A stretch of 64,000 bases of DNA from Gemmatirosa kalamazoonensis. Lineage in GTDB: Bacteria > Gemmatimonadota > Gemmatimonadetes > Gemmatimonadales > Gemmatimonadaceae. The stretch's first letter is position 1, and the number at the start of each line of letters is the position of its first letter. The translations under genes were made by a program, and so were the position numbers. The stretch lies in NCBI RefSeq assembly GCF_000522985.1, contig NZ_CP007128.1, positions 2,216,220 through 2,280,219 of the forward strand, in the 5' to 3' direction. Below, in pieces: positions 12,960 to 40,521 of the stretch. Under the pieces are notes generated by a model. That model saw only the letters and a list, made by a program, of their open reading frames with translations. It was not told the DNA's origin and made no database searches.

Positions 12960-14264
12960 ATGCGACACATGCGACACATGCGACGCGTCTCCCGCCTCGC
13001 CGTGGTTCTCGCGCTCGGCGCGCACGTCGCCAGGGCGCAGAACGACTCCACCTGGCGCGACCACGATCGCGCCGCGCGCGACGCCCGCCTGCGCGGCGAC
13101 TGGCGCGGCTCGCTCGCCCACCTCGAGCGCATGGACGCGCTGCTCGGCGGGCACCCGTCGGTGGTGCTCGCGATGGCGCGGGCGCAGGCGCGCGCGGGCG
13201 ACACCGCCGCGTCGATCGCCACGCTCGACCGCCTCGCCGCGATGGGCATCGCGCACGACGTGGCGGCGGACACGCTGCTCGACGGCGTGCGCGCGCCGGC
13301 CGAGGGGCTCGACGTCGCGCGTCGGCTTCGCGAGAACGGCGCCGCCGTCGGCGCGCCGCGCGTGGTGGCGACGATGCCCGATCGCGACTTCGTGGCCGAG
13401 GGGATCGTGTGGGATCCGACCCGGCGGCAGCTCCTCGTGTCGAGCATCCGACATCGGCGCGTCGTTTCCGTGACGCTCGACGGCACCGTGACGCCGCTCG
13501 TCGATCTCGCGCGTGACGGCGCGTGGGCGGCGATGGGGATGGCCATCGATCCCGCGCGCGATCGGCTGTGGGTGGCGACGGAGTGGACGACGAACATGGC
13601 GGGCGGCTCTCGCGCCGACTCCGGCCGCAGCGCCGTGCTCCGCTACGCGCTGCGCCGCCCGAGTGCGCCGCGGCGACTGACGCTGCCGCCGGGCCGGCAC
13701 GAGCCGGGCGACATCGCCGTCGCGTCGAACGGCGACCTGTTCGTCTCCGACGGCCGCGAGGGGATGATCTTCGTCGTGCGCGACGGGCGCGAGACGCTCG
13801 ACACGCTCGTGCCGCCGGGCACGCTCGTCTCGCCGCAGGGCATCGCGCCCGACGCCGACGGCCGCCGGCTGTTCGTCGCCGACTACGTGCGCGGCATCGC
13901 CGTCGTCGACCGGGCGACCGGCGCCGTGTCGTGGCTGCCGCGCCCGCGCGACGTCGCGGTGAACGGGGTCGACGGGATGATCCTGCGCGGCGACGCGCTG
14001 CTCGGCGTGCAGAACGGGCTGAACCCGGACCGCATCGTGGCGCTCGACCTCGACGGCGCGCACGGCGCGATCACCGGCGTGCGCGTGCTCGCACGCGACA
14101 GCACGATGCTGCAGGACCCCACGCACCTCGCGCTCGTCGGCGACGATCTGTACTTCGTCGCGAACGGCGGCTACGACGCGTACGAGGCCGATGGCTCGCT
14201 GCGCGCGGGGGCCGTGCAGCGCGCGCCGGCCGTCGCGCGGCTCGCGCTCCGGCCGCCGCGGTAG
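12960..14264 (+). CDS. Secreted SMP-30/NHL-like beta-propeller protein
   Basis: A 434-residue protein with a signal peptide (RLAVVLALGAHVARA). Roughly 100 helical, TPR-like residues follow (SLAHLERMDALLGG...AGDTAASIATLD), then a propeller of strand repeats (FVAEGIVWDPTRRQLLVSS, GDIAVASNGDLFVSD, SPQGIAPDADGRRLFVADY). The latter resemble gluconolactonase/SMP-30 or NHL blades, but without the metal ligands needed to call an enzyme. The start is uncertain: a 9-base direct repeat (ATGCGACAC) gives three in-frame ATGs at 12960, 12969 and 12978. Function unknown. Confidence 0.75.
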   Translation: MRHMRHMRRVSRLAVVLALGAHVARAQNDSTWRDHDRAARDARLRGDWRGSLAHLERMDALLGGHPSVVLAMARAQARAGDTAASIATLDRLAAMGIAHDVAADTLLDGVRAPAEGLDVARRLRENGAAVGAPRVVATMPDRDFVAEGIVWDPTRRQLLVSSIRHRRVVSVTLDGTVTPLVDLARDGAWAAMGMAIDPARDRLWVATEWTTNMAGGSRADSGRSAVLRYALRRPSAPRRLTLPPGRHEPGDIAVASNGDLFVSDGREGMIFVVRDGRETLDTLVPPGTLVSPQGIAPDADGRRLFVADYVRGIAVVDRATGAVSWLPRPRDVAVNGVDGMILRGDALLGVQNGLNPDRIVALDLDGAHGAITGVRVLARDSTMLQDPTHLALVGDDLYFVANGGYDAYEADGSLRAGAVQRAPAVARLALRPPR

Positions 14265-14268
14265 CGCT

Positions 14269-14367
14269 AGGAGGACAGGAGGGCAGGCGGGCAGCGAGTA
14301 TCTTGGTGAAGGGGACCCTCCCCCCTCGCGCCCTCCTGCCCTCCTGCCCTCCTGCCCTCCTGCCCTC
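14269..14367. repeat. Purine-arm tandem-repeat hairpin element (TGCCCTCC type)
   Basis: The left arm is AGGAGGACAGGAGGGCAGG-like (14269-14293). The right arm is four to five copies of the 8-mer TGCCCTCC/CCCTCCTG (14330-14367). The arms are complementary. The element fills the gap between the propeller gene and the sulfate-permease start codon, so it could terminate the first and set the leader of the second. Confidence 0.7.
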
Positions 14368-14368
14368 G

Positions 14369-16078
14369 GTGTTCGTCCCGAAGCTCGTCACCACCCTGCG
14401 CGGCTACGACCGCGCGCAGCTCGTCCGCGACCTCACCGCGGGCGTGATCGTCGGCATCGTGGCGCTCCCGCTGTCGATCGCGTTCGCGATCGCGAGCGGC
14501 GTCACGCCCGACCGCGGCCTGTACACGGCGATCGTCGCCGGCTTCCTCATCTCCGCCCTCGGCGGCTCGCGCGTGCAGGTGGGCGGGCCGACGGGGGCGT
14601 TCGTCGTCATCGTCTACGGCATCGTGCAGCGGTACGGCGTCGGCGGCCTCACCGTCGCGACGCTGATGGCCGGCGTGATGCTCGTCGCGTTCGGCGTGGC
14701 GAAGCTCGGCGTCGCGATCCGGTTCATCCCGCGGCCGCTCGTCACCGGATTCACGTCGGGGATCGCGGTGATCATCGCCAGCGGCGAGATCAAGGACTTC
14801 CTCGGCCTGCGCATGGGCGCCGTCCCGGCGCCGTTCGTGGAGAAGCTCGCCGCGATCGGCGCGCACCTCGGCACGGTGAACGGGCGCGCGTTCGGCGTGG
14901 CGCTGCTCGCGCTCGCGATCCTGATCCTGTGGCCGCGCGTGAGCCACCGCGTGCCGGGACCGCTCGTCGCGCTGCTCGTGACGACGGCCGTCGTGCGCGG
15001 CTTCGGCCTCGACGTGGAGACGATCGGGAGCCGCTTCGGCGCGATCAGCGCGTCGCTGCCGCACCCCGTGATGCCGCACCTCACGTTCGCCGAGGCGGCG
15101 TCGCTCGTCGGGCCGGCGTTCACCATCGCGCTGCTGGGCGGCATCGAGTCGCTGCTCTCGGCCGTGGTCGCGGACGGCATGATCGGTGGGCAGCATCGCT
15201 CGAACATGGAGCTCGTCGCGCAGGGCGTGGCGAACGTCGCGTCCGCGCTGTTCGGCGGCATCCCCGCCACCGGCGCCATCGCGCGCACGGCGACGAACGT
15301 GAAGAACGGCGGCCGCACGCCGGTGGCCGGCATGGTGCACGCGGCCACGCTGCTGCTCATCACGCTGTTCTTCGGCCGTTGGGCGGGGCTCGTCCCGATG
15401 GCGACGCTCGCGTCGATCCTGCTCGTGGTGGCGTACCACATGAGCGAGTGGCGCGTGTTCCGCAACGAGCTCTCGTCGCCGCGGGGCGACGTCGCCGTGA
15501 TGCTCGTGGCGTTCCTGCTCACGGTGCTCGTCGACCTCACCGTCGCGATCGAGGTCGGGATGGTGCTCGCCGCGTTCCTGTTCATGAAGCGCATGGCCGA
15601 GGTGACGCAGGTGCGCGCCGTGGCCGTCGCCGGCGGCCCGTCGGACGACCCCGATGCCGACGAGGCGCCCGATCCCGACGCCACGGGGCACTACCGCGTG
15701 CCGCGCGGCGTCGAGGTCTACGAGATCAACGGGCCGTTCTTCTTCGGCGCCGCGGCGGCGTTCAAGGACACGCTCGCGCGCGTCGCGGGGAAGCCGAAAG
15801 TGCTCGTGCTGCGCATGCGCCGCGTGCCGACGATCGACGCGACGGGACTGCACGCGCTCACCGACGTCGTGCACCGCAGTCGCCGCGACGGCTCGCTCGT
15901 GCTCCTGTCGGAGGTGCAGCCGCAGCCGCTCCAGGCGCTCCAGCGCTCCGTGGTGCTCGACGAGATCGGCGAGGAGCACCTCTGCCCGACGCTGAAGGAC
16001 GCACTGACCGCGGCCGAGGAGCACATCGCGGCGCGCCGGCTGCTACACGGCACCGGGCGGCACGCGGCGGTGACGTGA
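14369..16078 (+). CDS. SulP-family anion transporter with STAS domain
   Basis: A 569-residue transporter. The GTG at 14369 is chosen because the protein then begins VFVPKLVTTLRGYDRAQLVRD, as in family members; no ATG or Shine-Dalgarno is available since the repeat abuts it. Family blocks are DLTAGVIVGIVALPLSIAFAIASG, GFLISALGGSRVQVGGPTGAF, and GGIPATGAIARTATNVKNGGRTPVAGM. About 11 membrane segments are followed by a C-terminal STAS domain (about residues 445-550). Substrates of bacterial SulP proteins include sulfate, bicarbonate and dicarboxylates; the sequence does not decide among them. Confidence 0.92.
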   Translation: MFVPKLVTTLRGYDRAQLVRDLTAGVIVGIVALPLSIAFAIASGVTPDRGLYTAIVAGFLISALGGSRVQVGGPTGAFVVIVYGIVQRYGVGGLTVATLMAGVMLVAFGVAKLGVAIRFIPRPLVTGFTSGIAVIIASGEIKDFLGLRMGAVPAPFVEKLAAIGAHLGTVNGRAFGVALLALAILILWPRVSHRVPGPLVALLVTTAVVRGFGLDVETIGSRFGAISASLPHPVMPHLTFAEAASLVGPAFTIALLGGIESLLSAVVADGMIGGQHRSNMELVAQGVANVASALFGGIPATGAIARTATNVKNGGRTPVAGMVHAATLLLITLFFGRWAGLVPMATLASILLVVAYHMSEWRVFRNELSSPRGDVAVMLVAFLLTVLVDLTVAIEVGMVLAAFLFMKRMAEVTQVRAVAVAGGPSDDPDADEAPDPDATGHYRVPRGVEVYEINGPFFFGAAAAFKDTLARVAGKPKVLVLRMRRVPTIDATGLHALTDVVHRSRRDGSLVLLSEVQPQPLQALQRSVVLDEIGEEHLCPTLKDALTAAEEHIAARRLLHGTGRHAAVT

Positions 16079-16091
16079 GGCGCGTGCGGCT

Positions 16092-16357
16092 CACGCGGAG
16101 GCGCGGAGCACGCGGAGAACGGCCTCTTCGTATTGAACCGCAGAGGACGCAGAGGGCCGCAGAGGACTGCCTCTTTGAATCGAACCACGGAGGGCACGGA
16201 GGACACGGAGGAAACCAATTGGAGTGGTTCTCCTCTGTGTCCTCCGTGTCCTCTGTGGTTCGGAGAAGAGAGATGGTGTTCTCTGCGGCCCTCTGCGTCC
16301 TCTGCGGTTCATTCACACAGCCAAAGCAGTTCTCCGCGTGCTCCGCGCCTCCGCGTG
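16092..16357. repeat. Three tandem-repeat hairpin elements nested inside each other
   Basis: The outer arms (16092-16120 and 16329-16357) are a perfect 29-bp inverted repeat built of CGCGGAG units. The middle arms (16135-16164 and 16281-16310) are a perfect 30-bp inverted repeat built of CGCAGAGG units. The inner arms (16183-16216 and 16226-16260) are near-perfect and built of CACGGAGG units, around a short loop. The locus separates the convergent sulP and S33-hydrolase genes. Short open frames on both strands here are by-products of the repeats. Confidence 0.9.
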
Positions 16358-16361
16358 AGAA

Positions 16362-17429
16362 TCAGAATCGCCCCGCGTCCACGTCGTGAATGAACCGGAT
16401 CACGCCGTCCATGTACGTGTGCTGGTCGTCGTACATGGCCATGTGGCTCCCGTTCGGGCAGTAGAGGTACCGCGCGTGCGGCATCGACTTCGCCATGCGC
16501 TCCATGAACGCCGGGTCCATCGTGTCGTACTTCGCGCCGATGACGAGCGTCGGCACGGTGATCTTCGGCAGGTCCGCGGTGCGGTCCCAGTGCTCGAGCT
16601 TCCCGCTCGCGCCCATTTCGCTCGGCCCCTGCATCGGGACGTACACGTCCTCGTTGATGTGGGCGAACGCGCGCTTGACGGGGTCGGGCCACGAGTCCGC
16701 CGGCATGCGCAGCAGGTGCTGCTCGTAGAAGTTCGGCGTGAGCAGCGCCATGTAGCGTGGGCTCTGGAAATCCTTCCGTGCCTCGATGGCCTGGATCTCG
16801 GCCAGCGCCTTCTGGTCCATCGCCGGCATGAGGACCTTGTGCGCGTACTCGTTGTACGCCGGGATGCTCGACATCATGTTCGAGATGACGAGCCCTTTCA
16901 GGTTCTGCTGGTACTTCAGCGCGTACTCCGTGGCGAGCAGCCCGCCCCACGACTGGCCCAGCAGGTAGAAGTTGGTGCGGTCGAGGCCTAACGCCTTCCG
17001 CACCTGCTCGACCTCCTCGACGTAGCGCGCCGTGTTCACGAGCGACGAGTCCTTCGGGTTGTCGCTGTAGAACGAGCCGAGCTGGTCGTAGTAGTAGTAC
17101 TCGACGTTCGCGGCCGGGAAGTACGAGTCGAACGCCTCCATGTACTCGTGCGTCGCGCCCGGACCGCCGTGCAACAGCAGCACCTTCACGCGCGGGTTGT
17201 TGCCGATGCGCTTCGTCCAGACGTGGAACGTGCCTTTCGGCGTCGTGATCGGGATGAGGCGTACGCCGCCGGAGAGGACGTCGGTGCGGCCGGCGGTGTC
17301 GAAGTAGGCCGCGGTCGCGTTAGGCGGCGTGGCGCCCGCGCGCGCGCTGTCGCTCGGCGTGGACGAGCCGGCGCGGCACGCGGCCGCGACGACGAGGGGC
17401 AGGAGCGCGACGAGGAGGTGGCGGCGCAT
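16362..17429 (-). CDS. Proline iminopeptidase-like (S33) alpha/beta hydrolase lipoprotein
   Basis: A 355-residue protein. The start at 17429 gives a lipoprotein signal (MRRHLLVALLPLVVAAAC, Cys18). Motifs are the oxyanion strand LLLHGGPGATHEYM, YYDQLGSFYSD, the nucleophile elbow GQSWGG, the acid in GAKYDTMDP and the catalytic His in PNGSHMAMYDD. This is the proline iminopeptidase / tricorn-factor branch of family S33, here exported and lipid-anchored. It probably acts on N-terminal residues of peptides in the envelope; the exact substrate is unknown. Confidence 0.88.
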   Translation of the reverse strand: MRRHLLVALLPLVVAAACRAGSSTPSDSARAGATPPNATAAYFDTAGRTDVLSGGVRLIPITTPKGTFHVWTKRIGNNPRVKVLLLHGGPGATHEYMEAFDSYFPAANVEYYYYDQLGSFYSDNPKDSSLVNTARYVEEVEQVRKALGLDRTNFYLLGQSWGGLLATEYALKYQQNLKGLVISNMMSSIPAYNEYAHKVLMPAMDQKALAEIQAIEARKDFQSPRYMALLTPNFYEQHLLRMPADSWPDPVKRAFAHINEDVYVPMQGPSEMGASGKLEHWDRTADLPKITVPTLVIGAKYDTMDPAFMERMAKSMPHARYLYCPNGSHMAMYDDQHTYMDGVIRFIHDVDAGRF

Positions 17430-17450
17430 GTCGGCGTGGCTGGCGGTACC

Positions 17451-17485
17451 TAGTACCCAGGGGGGCTCCCCCCCACGCCCATCAT
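17451..17485. repeat. Dispersed G-run/C-run repeat, copy 1
   Basis: The sequence TAGTACCCA-G6-CTC7-ACGCCCA is almost duplicated at 48850 (TAGTTCCCA-G7-CTC8-TTCGCCCA). Here it lies 22 bases upstream of the S33 hydrolase start, in the divergent region shared with the SDR gene. A GGTAC-CTA-GTACC inverted repeat overlaps its left end. Confidence 0.6.
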
Positions 17486-17565
17486 AGCGCCGACCGCCGA
17501 GCGGGGAAGTGCCATTCGAGCGCACGGCCGGTACGTTTGGCCGCACCCTCAACCGCGGAGATCCG

Positions 17566-18336
17566 ATGCGCCTCAAGGACAAGGTCGCGCTCATCACGGG
17601 TGCCAGCTCGGGCATCGGCGCCGGCGTGGCCGCGCGCTTCGCCGCCGAGGGCGCGTACGTCGCGCTGAACTTCCGGCCGGGGAGTGCGCCGGATCGCGAG
17701 GCCGCCGAGCGCGCGGTCGCCGGCTTCACGACGCGCGCCGTCGCGGTGGAGGGGGACGTCTCCGACCGCGCGCAGGTGGAGGCGATGGTCGACCGCGTGG
17801 TGCGCGAGCTGGGGCGCCTCGACGTCTGCGTGTGCAACGCCGGCATCGAGGTGCGGCGCGACTTCCTCGACACGACCGACGAGGAGTGGCATCGCGTCCT
17901 CGGCGTCAACCTCTTCGGCGCGTTCGCGGTGAGTCAGGCGGCGGCGCGCGTCATGGTGCGGCAGGGCGGCGGGGGGCGGCTGCTGTTCATGTCGTCGGTG
18001 CACGAGGACATCCCGTTCCCCGGGTACACGTCGTACTGCGCGAGCAAGGGCGCGGTGCGGATGCTGATGCGCAACCTGGCGATGGAGCTCGCGCCGCACC
18101 GCATCACCGTCAACAACATCGCCCCCGGGGCGATCGCGACGCCGATCAACCGCGCGGTGCTCGAGGATCCGGTGGCGTACGCCAACGCGGTGAGCGAGAT
18201 CCCGCTGGGCCGCTTCGGCACGCCGGAGGACGTCGCCGCCGTCGCGACGTTCCTGGCGAGCGACGAGGCGGGCTACGTCACCGGCAGCACGTACTACGTG
18301 GACGGCGGGCTGACGCAGCAGGTGACCCTGTACTGA
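17566..18336 (+). CDS. Short-chain dehydrogenase/reductase (glucose 1-dehydrogenase-like)
   Basis: A 256-residue classical SDR. The ATG at 17566 has GGAG 8 bases upstream. It shows the dinucleotide-binding TGASSGIG (about residues 11-18), NAG at the beta-4 position, the catalytic Ser-Tyr-Lys set in MSSVHEDIPFPGYTSYCASK, and the C-terminal YVTGSTYYVDGGLTQQ common in glucose 1-dehydrogenase-like members. A basic/polar residue pattern at the end of beta-2 (NFRPGS) would fit NADP, but this is inference. Cytoplasmic; substrate unknown. It ends 9 bases from a convergent gene. Confidence 0.9.
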   Translation: MRLKDKVALITGASSGIGAGVAARFAAEGAYVALNFRPGSAPDREAAERAVAGFTTRAVAVEGDVSDRAQVEAMVDRVVRELGRLDVCVCNAGIEVRRDFLDTTDEEWHRVLGVNLFGAFAVSQAAARVMVRQGGGGRLLFMSSVHEDIPFPGYTSYCASKGAVRMLMRNLAMELAPHRITVNNIAPGAIATPINRAVLEDPVAYANAVSEIPLGRFGTPEDVAAVATFLASDEAGYVTGSTYYVDGGLTQQVTLY

Positions 18337-26227: not shown

Positions 26228-27259
26228 ATGGGCTCGGCATTCGAACCGCAGAGGACGCAGAGGAAGCCGACAGCAGTTGGTTCTCCTCTGCGTCCTCTGC
26301 GTCCTCTGCGGTCGAATCGAACGGCACGGTTCGTACTCGTCTTGCTCCTGACGGCGCCGCGCGTTGCGCTCGCCCATCCCGGTCGGCCCCCGGAGCCGCA
26401 CGATCTCGCCGGCGCATGGCTCACAGAGCCCGGCGCGGTCGTCGCCGTGCTGCTGCTCGGCCTCGCCTACGCGTGGGGCGTCGTCCGGCTGCGCCGGCGG
26501 GCGGGCCCCGACCGGGGCGTGACGCGCGGCGCCGTCGTCGCGTTCGCGCTCGGCTGGCTCGCGCTCGCCGGGGCGCTCGTGTCGCCGCTCCATCCGTTAG
26601 GCGCCGCGCTGTTCTCGGCGCACATGGCGCAGCACGAGCTGCTCATGGCCGTCGCCGCGCCGCTGCTCGTGCTCGGCCGGCCGCTCGTCGCGCTGGCGTG
26701 GGCGCTGCCGCGACGCACGCACCGCGGCGCGGCGCGGCTCGCCCGCACGGTGCGCCCGCTCCACGCGCTGGCCGAGCCGTGGACCGCGACCGCGATACAC
26801 GGGGCCGCGGTGTGGATGTGGCACGCGCCGGCGCTGTACGGGCTCGCGCTGCGCAGCGAGGCGGCGCACGCGCTGCAGCACGCGAGCTTCCTCGGCACCG
26901 CGCTGCTCTTCTGGTGGGCCGTGCTCGGCGCGCGCGGACGCGACCGGCTCGCCACGCGGCTGCTCGTGCTGTTCCTCACCGCGCTGCACACCGGCGCGCT
27001 CGGCGCGCTGCTGACGTTCGCCGACCGGCCGCTCATCGCGGCGTACCTCACCACCACCGCGCCGTGGGGGTTCACGCCGCTCGAGGATCAGGAGCTCGCG
27101 GGGCTCATCATGTGGATCCCCGGCGGCGTCGCGTACCTCGCCGCGGGGCTGTGGATCCTCTCGGGCGTGCTGCGCGCCGATGCGCCCGTCGCGACGCCGT
27201 TAGGCGCTCAGGCGTCGAGCAGCGCGCGCGCGGCGCGGGCGAGCGCGTTGCCGTCGTAG
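26228..27259 (+). CDS. CtaG-like (caa3-type) cytochrome c oxidase assembly protein
   Basis: A 343-residue membrane protein with about seven hydrophobic segments. Family blocks are SPLHPLGAALFSAHMAQHELLMAVAAPLLVLG, HGAAVWMWHAPALYGLAL, HTGALGALLTFADRPLI and LEDQELAGLIMWIPGG. It matches the caa3_CtaG family of copper-insertion factors for cytochrome oxidase. The only start codon before the signal-like segment (FVLVLLLTAPRVALA) other than a TTG at 26343 is the ATG at 26228. That makes a hairpin repeat encode residues about 5-30. The last 52 bases overlap the convergent kinase gene. Confidence 0.82.
   Translation: MGSAFEPQRTQRKPTAVGSPLRPLRPLRSNRTARFVLVLLLTAPRVALAHPGRPPEPHDLAGAWLTEPGAVVAVLLLGLAYAWGVVRLRRRAGPDRGVTRGAVVAFALGWLALAGALVSPLHPLGAALFSAHMAQHELLMAVAAPLLVLGRPLVALAWALPRRTHRGAARLARTVRPLHALAEPWTATAIHGAAVWMWHAPALYGLALRSEAAHALQHASFLGTALLFWWAVLGARGRDRLATRLLVLFLTALHTGALGALLTFADRPLIAAYLTTTAPWGFTPLEDQELAGLIMWIPGGVAYLAAGLWILSGVLRADAPVATPLGAQASSSARAARASALPS
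26240..26316. repeat. Purine-arm hairpin element (CGCAGAGG type) in the 5' end of the CtaG-like gene
   Basis: The left arm (26240-26265) is built of CGCAGAGGA units and the right arm (26281-26316) of TCCTCTGCG units, around a 15-base loop. It is the same unit family as the middle layer at 16135-16310. It lies in frame with the downstream coding region. Confidence 0.8.
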
Positions 27260-40361: not shown

Positions 40362-40366
40362 TCTCG

Positions 40367-40437
40367 CGCGGAGACGCGGAGCACGCGGAGAACACCGAGT
40401 GTTCCTGGAAGTTCTCCGCGCGCTCCGCGTCTCCGCG
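40367..40437. repeat. Purine-arm hairpin element (CGCGGAG type)
   Basis: The 27-base arms (40367-40393 and 40411-40437) built of CGCGGAG units pair with one mismatch around a 17-base loop. They are the same unit family as the outer layer at 16092-16357. The element starts 6 bases after the RND permease stop and may act as its transcript end. Confidence 0.85.
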
Positions 40438-40521
40438 TGAGCCCGGACGGGTACAGCCGAGCCTCGGGCCCAAGTACCTTTCAAGCCGTCCGCCCGATCG
40501 AAGTACCCGAGGGTTCGTGGA

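Follow-up and report, generated by a model that had tools for sequence, protein, structure and literature searches.

The window, a stretch of 64,000 nucleotides from Gemmatirosa kalamazoonensis (source genome of 7,479,215 bases on four contigs; window C2:2216220-2280219), contains three inverted repeats at positions 16090-16359, found by an inverted-repeat search and by reading the sequence, each of which encloses the next in the order 1>2>3. The outermost, type-1 hairpin consists of CGCGGAG units, and its arms (left, 16090-16123, plus strand; right, 16326-16359, minus strand) are 97% complementary. The type-2 pair (16134-16174 and 16271-16311), with CGCAGAGG units, is 90% complementary across 41 nt and belongs to a type-2b hairpin with arms at 16134-16165 (plus strand) and 16280-16311 (minus strand). 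In both types, the first 31 bp pair perfectly. The innermost, type-3 hairpin is built from CACGGAGG units, the third arm unit of the structure being CACRGAGG, and its arms (16181-16212, plus strand; 16231-16262, minus strand) are 91% complementary around an apical loop of 18 nt (16213-16230). The DNA fold of 16080-16370 has a free energy of -136 kcal/mol compared to -55.6 ± 4.1 kcal/mol for shuffled sequences (z = -19.6), which together with the inverted repeats confirms the three nested hairpins described in an earlier note on this DNA.

The hairpins encode no gene of their own and fill nearly all of the space between the stop codons of two convergent genes. The upstream gene (13523-16078, plus strand) ends 11 bp before the hairpin, and the stop codon of the downstream gene (16362-17909, minus strand) lies 2 bp beyond it; both were taken as open frames, of 851 and 515 aa, respectively, which are frame lengths with starts not fixed. 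A portion of the downstream gene (16365-17329) has homologues in relatives. In other genera, this gene alone was found, without a hairpin and with no evident common upstream sequence, and thus no inference on the history of the window locus is possible from them. No T-tract follows either arm of the window hairpin in the sequence, and an Rfam search of the window hairpins gave nothing above the gathering threshold, the sub-threshold matches being microRNA-precursor look-alikes and one sRNA.

Hairpin families across the genome

All three hairpin types are abundant in the source genome, with 201 (type 1), 242 (type 2), and 263 (type 3) matches to two-unit patterns, in which an arm with three units counts twice, vs. 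0-3 matches for the reversed patterns used as control. In the window itself, the solo copies of types 1 and 2 reported in the earlier note are present at 40367 and 26247, namely a type-1 hairpin (40364-40441) and a type-2 hairpin with two units on the left and three on the right (26239-26317). A census of an unbiased 1.2 Mb stretch (C2:280001-1480000, one sixth of the genome), which rests on unit patterns and thus misses degenerate arms, recorded 197 arms in 95 groups, 61 of which have arms on both strands.

Further hairpin kinds occur in the same stretch. A fourth kind (TGGGGATGAAAGGATC...; C2:345959, 381325, 647018, 1004650, 1135930, and 1339414; L189-L248) was seen solely inside type-1 or type-2 hairpins and has the common flank cagcaaagacc, and a fifth kind (TGGGGATCC...GGATCCCCA) is found both solo and inside other hairpins. 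Hairpins with GACTGAAGAAG units and the ends CTCCACGTACGTG / CACGTACGTGGAG have 79 two-unit matches in the 1.2 Mb (C2:354882, 368888, 403314, and others; L189-L248). Two apparently larger elements were rejected on inspection: C2:842845-844336, a candidate element of 1.4 kb, comprises two separate double hairpins around an ordinary gene, and C2:619780-621281 turned out to be a copy of IS3 that lies within a 2-3 composite. At L014:1456-3007, an IS3-like element (orfA/orfB) splits a 2-3 composite, the halves of which keep their order.

Nesting order and junctions

Nested groups are frequent in the 1.2 Mb census, and their order is always type 1 outside type 2 outside type 3; neither the reverse order nor a type nested inside itself was seen there. 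The type-3 arms all accompany type-2 arms, except in one group, in whose flank the 2-3 linker is still recognisable. For each layer there are two linker classes, both of which are represented in a complete composite, i.e. classes A and C in 3-in-2 composites (clear in 8 of 10 pairs) and classes A and B in 2-in-1 composites (4 of 4). The window composite has the same asymmetric junctions as almost every nested copy. Its 1-2 linkers are aacggcctcttcgtattgaac on the left (16118-16138, plus strand; class A of the asymmetric type-1 host loop) and the reverse complement aactgctttggctgtgtgaatgaac on the right (16308-16332, minus strand; class B), and its 2-3 linkers are gactgcctctttgaatcgaac (16165-16185, plus strand; class A) and the reverse complement aacaccatctctcttctccgaac (16258-16280, minus strand; class C, with a weaker fit). 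As judged from these sequences, each pair of linker classes represents a single asymmetric host loop seen in both of its orientations. The loops of solo type-1 and type-2 hairpins differ from the host loops of nested copies, so the empty host loop has not yet been observed. The fixed junctions, the fixed order, and the tie of type 3 to type 2 make it probable that each layer goes back to one or a few founding events, after which the composites spread as units.

The earlier note had proposed that each element inserted into the loop of the previous one. Loop insertion is still the best reading of the nesting as such, but not as a series of events at this locus, because the junctions are shared and the order is fixed. 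Three independent successive insertions here, guided by a preference for hairpin loops, would be in line with the high frequency of nesting and with the presence of further hairpin kinds (GGGGATGAAA, GGGGATCC) inside types 1 and 2. We nevertheless consider this scenario unlikely, as nearly all copies show the same asymmetric junction in two orientations, the order does not vary, and neither type 3 nor the GGGGATGAAA kind was found solo in the 1.2 Mb.

Within type 2, the two arms of a hairpin are more alike than arms of different copies, with 14 perfect pairs vs. 5.5 expected (maximum of 11 in 2000 permutations), whereas type-3 arms have no perfect pairs vs. 1.0 expected. The suggestion in the earlier note that perfect arms reflect arm correction is therefore upheld for type 2 and fails for type 3, which led us to reject it as a general rule. 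In genome G091 (L264, L262, L266), type-2 and type-3 arms alternate in tandem (2-3-2-3-2-3) with a 92-bp period. These arrays, which insertion alone does not explain, indicate that hairpins also grow by duplication. Along these lines, the layers could have arisen on the spot with no insertion involved, through duplication and template switches from one arm copy to another (quasi-palindrome correction), as the alternating arms 92 bp apart (L264) and the closeness of type-2 arms to their own partners might suggest. Such an origin is rather improbable given that entire composites are missing from congeners at the same site (see below), that the types differ systematically in unit sequence and apex, and that gene-bearing versions of types 1 and 2 occur separately.

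Placement relative to genes

The outer elements adjoin the 3' ends of genes, just past stop codons or terminators and mostly between convergent genes; the general preference for hairpin loops put forward in the earlier note was thus not borne out. With genes called by a simple rule based on open frames and codon composition, 22 of the 42 classifiable intergenic census elements lie between convergent genes vs. 25 of 154 neighbouring gene pairs (p about 7e-6 for the excess), and only 1 of 42 lies between divergent genes (vs. 25 of 154). This bias may reflect target choice, tolerance, or a use at the 3' end, which the data do not separate.

A use at the 3' end is central to the possibility that the host keeps the hairpins as bidirectional terminators or stabilisers of mRNA 3' ends and that their link to GxxExxY genes (see below) is due to chance or to a passenger role. 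The strong bias to convergent pairs and to sites just past stop codons fits such a function, but the missing T-tract beyond the window arms, the existence of whole congeners without hairpins and with empty sites, and the recurrence of the gene association across phyla make it a poor candidate.

GxxExxY genes enclosed by hairpin arms

The arm unit of the window hairpins is of the class that encloses GxxExxY (PF13366) genes in many phyla. GxxExxY proteins belong to the PD-(D/E)XK nuclease superfamily, and the nuclease-site residues D, ExK, and Q as well as the name residues G, E, and Y are invariant in 40 proteins. The predicted structure (pLDDT 92) has only weak nearest folds (lambda exonuclease and the Cas4-like SSO0001; E about 6e-3, TM about 0.5), and sequence searches found no relative with a solved structure.

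We selected 80 GxxExxY loci by their protein, not by their arms, from a one-genome-per-species collection covering many phyla. Among the loci with full flanks, 46 of 68 have an inverted repeat around them within 350 bp, compared to 4 of 248 frames displaced by 1.3-2.2 kb as a control (Fisher p about 1e-33); a third of the 68 have no enclosing arms. In 47 of 49 enclosed loci, the arms consist of C-R-C-N-R-A-G units (e.g. ACCACAGAGACACAGAGACACAGAG), and the window arms share the trait of this class, in that each inverted arm is made up of roughly three such units in tandem. In the order alone, arms enclose 26 of 47 GxxExxY genes vs. 0 of 90 control frames, and among random frames of the hairpin-rich source genome the proportion is 15 of 300. 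The last letters of the arm unit track the GxxExxY tree, which is weakly resolved, with 7 changes vs. a mean of 10.5 after shuffling (0 of 200 shuffles as low).

In the source genome, GxxExxY genes are bounded by arms of the same kinds as types 1 and 2. Type-1 hairpins stand on both sides of a decayed gene (L046) and type-2 hairpins on both sides of a frameshifted one (L051), the decay of these genes being due to deletion and frameshift, respectively. Other GxxExxY genes have CAGGATG (L045), GGGGATC (L047), or GACTGAAG (L050) hairpins on both sides; at L049, a GCGGATC hairpin flanks the gene on one side. Each of these flanking families is also represented by solo copies elsewhere in the census. 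The GACTGAAGAAG hairpins also flank the gene of L050. No GxxExxY gene with type-3 arms was found in the source genome. All eight hairpin-dense genomes of the order have a GxxExxY gene, as do 6 of the 16 hairpin-free congeners tested, yet G091, which is rich in hairpins, has no matching arms around any of its three GxxExxY genes.

The motif [AG]ACTGC occurs immediately inside 40 of the 197 census arms (1.6 expected) and 18 of 26 arms in G091, and is also found inside the arms of gene-bearing copies in G078 and G033. Its presence in both hairpins and gene-bearing copies suggests, on sequence grounds, that what is left of the inner ends of a gene-bearing element is preserved in the host loops, where the inner hairpin has taken the place of the gene.

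The size, palindromy, 3'-end location, and hairpin-flanked gene all resemble REPtrons (PMC3733652), and one could ask whether the hairpins are of the REP type and mobilised by a RAYT transposase, or whether they are MITEs that derive from an ordinary insertion sequence. This is very improbable. No RAYT gene (PF01797, Y1_Tnp) was found in the source genome, although control genomes were positive in the same search, and hence the hairpins are not REPs. Moreover, no GTAG or CGTC tag was present at a foot of the palindrome in the arms and feet that we read, the loci read contain no transposase between such arms, and the sole insertion sequence within an element is an IS3 that interrupts it.

Distribution and empty sites

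Across 151 genomes of the order (G-numbered), in which the relatives of the source genome come from other genera, the arms are patchily distributed. They are dense in G000, G152, G013, G033, G078, G153, G091, and G003 and absent from most congeners, as determined with a 9-10 bp arm pattern that overlooks arms of 8 bp, for example those in G022.

Empty sites in congeners were found for both gene-less and gene-bearing elements. A gene-less composite of about 260 bp in G091 (L263) is absent between the same two genes in G128, G018, G076, G070, G085, G136, and G152, and a gene-less hairpin of about 180 bp in the same genome (L259) is absent in G128. The gene-bearing element of G078 (L302, 481 bp arm-to-arm, with ACCACAGAGGGCACAGAGAACACAGAG arms), which directly follows a stop codon, is absent in G022, G132, and G148, and that of G022 (L040, 432 bp), which starts directly after a terminator T-tract, is absent in G078, G112, G087, G144, and G148. 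The flanks at the empty sites are roughly 70%-85% identical, so that the element ends are known to within a few bases, and the boundaries show no clear target duplication in these diverged flanks. For both L302 and L040, the genome of the element contains dozens of solo hairpins that match its arms, which ties the solo hairpins to the gene-bearing elements.

The empty sites thus indicate that gene-bearing elements and gene-less hairpins are gained or lost as units. Presence or absence at a single site fits gain and loss alike, and the absence from whole genomes of several congeners favours gain. Together with the patchy distribution, the empty sites support the claim of the earlier note that the elements are mobile. 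A search for empty-site sources yielded seven distant plasmid matches and no phage matches.

Two other features were seen at these sites. At the spot of the G022 element, G116 (L324, G116:C1:260114-263068) has a GxxExxY element with CACGAAG arms and, after it, an IS110-type-looking transposase gene. Beside the G022 element lies another dispersed palindromic repeat (L040:2525-2650) with many matches in G022 and G158.

Proposed origin of the nested hairpins

We consider it probable that three copies of GxxExxY elements without a gene make up the composite structure in the window and that such composites spread as units. A full element would consist of inverted arms, each of about three tandem 7-10 bp units (C-R-C-R-G-A-G), around one PD-(D/E)XK nuclease gene, and the solo hairpins would be the remainder without the gene, comparable to the relation of MITEs to a transposon or of REPs to a RAYT gene. 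We infer that the nuclease is the mover of these elements. It may recognise the folded arms of its own kind and aid their excision or copying, after which a copy would enter at the 3' end of a gene, just past a stop codon or a terminator T-tract. For this second step, insertion is deduced from the empty sites in related genomes, and the enzyme and its target preference are presumed. The fixed junctions suggest that, in one or a few events each, type 2 entered a type-1 loop and type 3 a type-2 loop, and fixed order and junctions likewise suggest that 1-2, 2-3, and 1-2-3 composites then spread as units. The window locus would be one three-layer copy between convergent genes.

More tentatively, and with somewhat less than even confidence, GxxExxY nucleases may represent a cross-phylum class of minimal mobile elements (one gene between hairpin arms of tandem units, about 430-580 bp in all) that move with no known transposase; in this wider proposal, S23 genes would mark a sister class built in the same way, whose known tip would be the intervening sequences of 23S rRNA, and nested hairpins would be fossil composites.

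Relation to known systems and S23 genes

The elements share with REPtrons (REP/REPIN and RAYT; PMC3733652) the short dispersed palindromes with many copies outside genes and the single small nuclease-type gene flanked by the same palindromes. In contrast to REPtrons, the partner here is a PD-(D/E)XK protein (PF13366) instead of an HUH tyrosine transposase, and the arms are tandem 7-10 bp units without a GTAG tag. Like MITEs, the solo hairpins are gene-less inverted-repeat derivatives of a larger gene-bearing element, but no transposase is known for them, their arms fold into a single near-perfect hairpin with a short loop, and target duplication was not seen at the empty sites, where the flanks have diverged.

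PD-(D/E)XK homing endonucleases and the Tn7 protein TnsA are nucleases that take part in moving DNA. The GxxExxY proteins belong to the same kind of nuclease and would likewise act in DNA movement, but differ in the lack of an intron or intein and of other transposition proteins, and in their dispersal to many non-allelic sites.

The six repeat sequences tested had no occurrence in the open-access literature searched, and the mentions of GxxExxY read there do not concern repeats. The GxxExxY element family seems to occur widely among bacteria and, judged from the open-access literature, to be previously undescribed. As GxxExxY (PF13366) is annotated in many genomes without a function, the link to a class of repeats provides a testable role, and it would account for a common, unnamed repeat of environmental bacteria.

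Intervening sequences in rRNA genes sit in the loops of rRNA hairpins. Those of the 23S rRNA with an S23 gene (PF05635) resemble the elements described here in that a long hairpin has a small gene within its loop, whereas the window hairpins carry units of the GxxExxY class instead of the S23 class and lie between two protein genes, outside rRNA genes and without PF05635. Within the order, 36 of 38 PF05635 genes, which encode a four-helix bundle, are enclosed by inverted arms vs. 2 of 76 control frames. This S23 pattern may be a more general result than the GxxExxY link, and the same architecture around S23 genes would make the rRNA intervening sequences one case of general small mobile elements. 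No joint treatment of S23, inverted repeats, and 23S rRNA was found in the open-access literature with the terms tried. The PF05635 genes (L089-L108, L065-L088) lie in the loops of long inverted arms at ordinary chromosomal sites, and these arms consist of tandem short units, with each locus having its own unit (e.g. GGGCAGGA, GACTCGG, or GCGTGGA).
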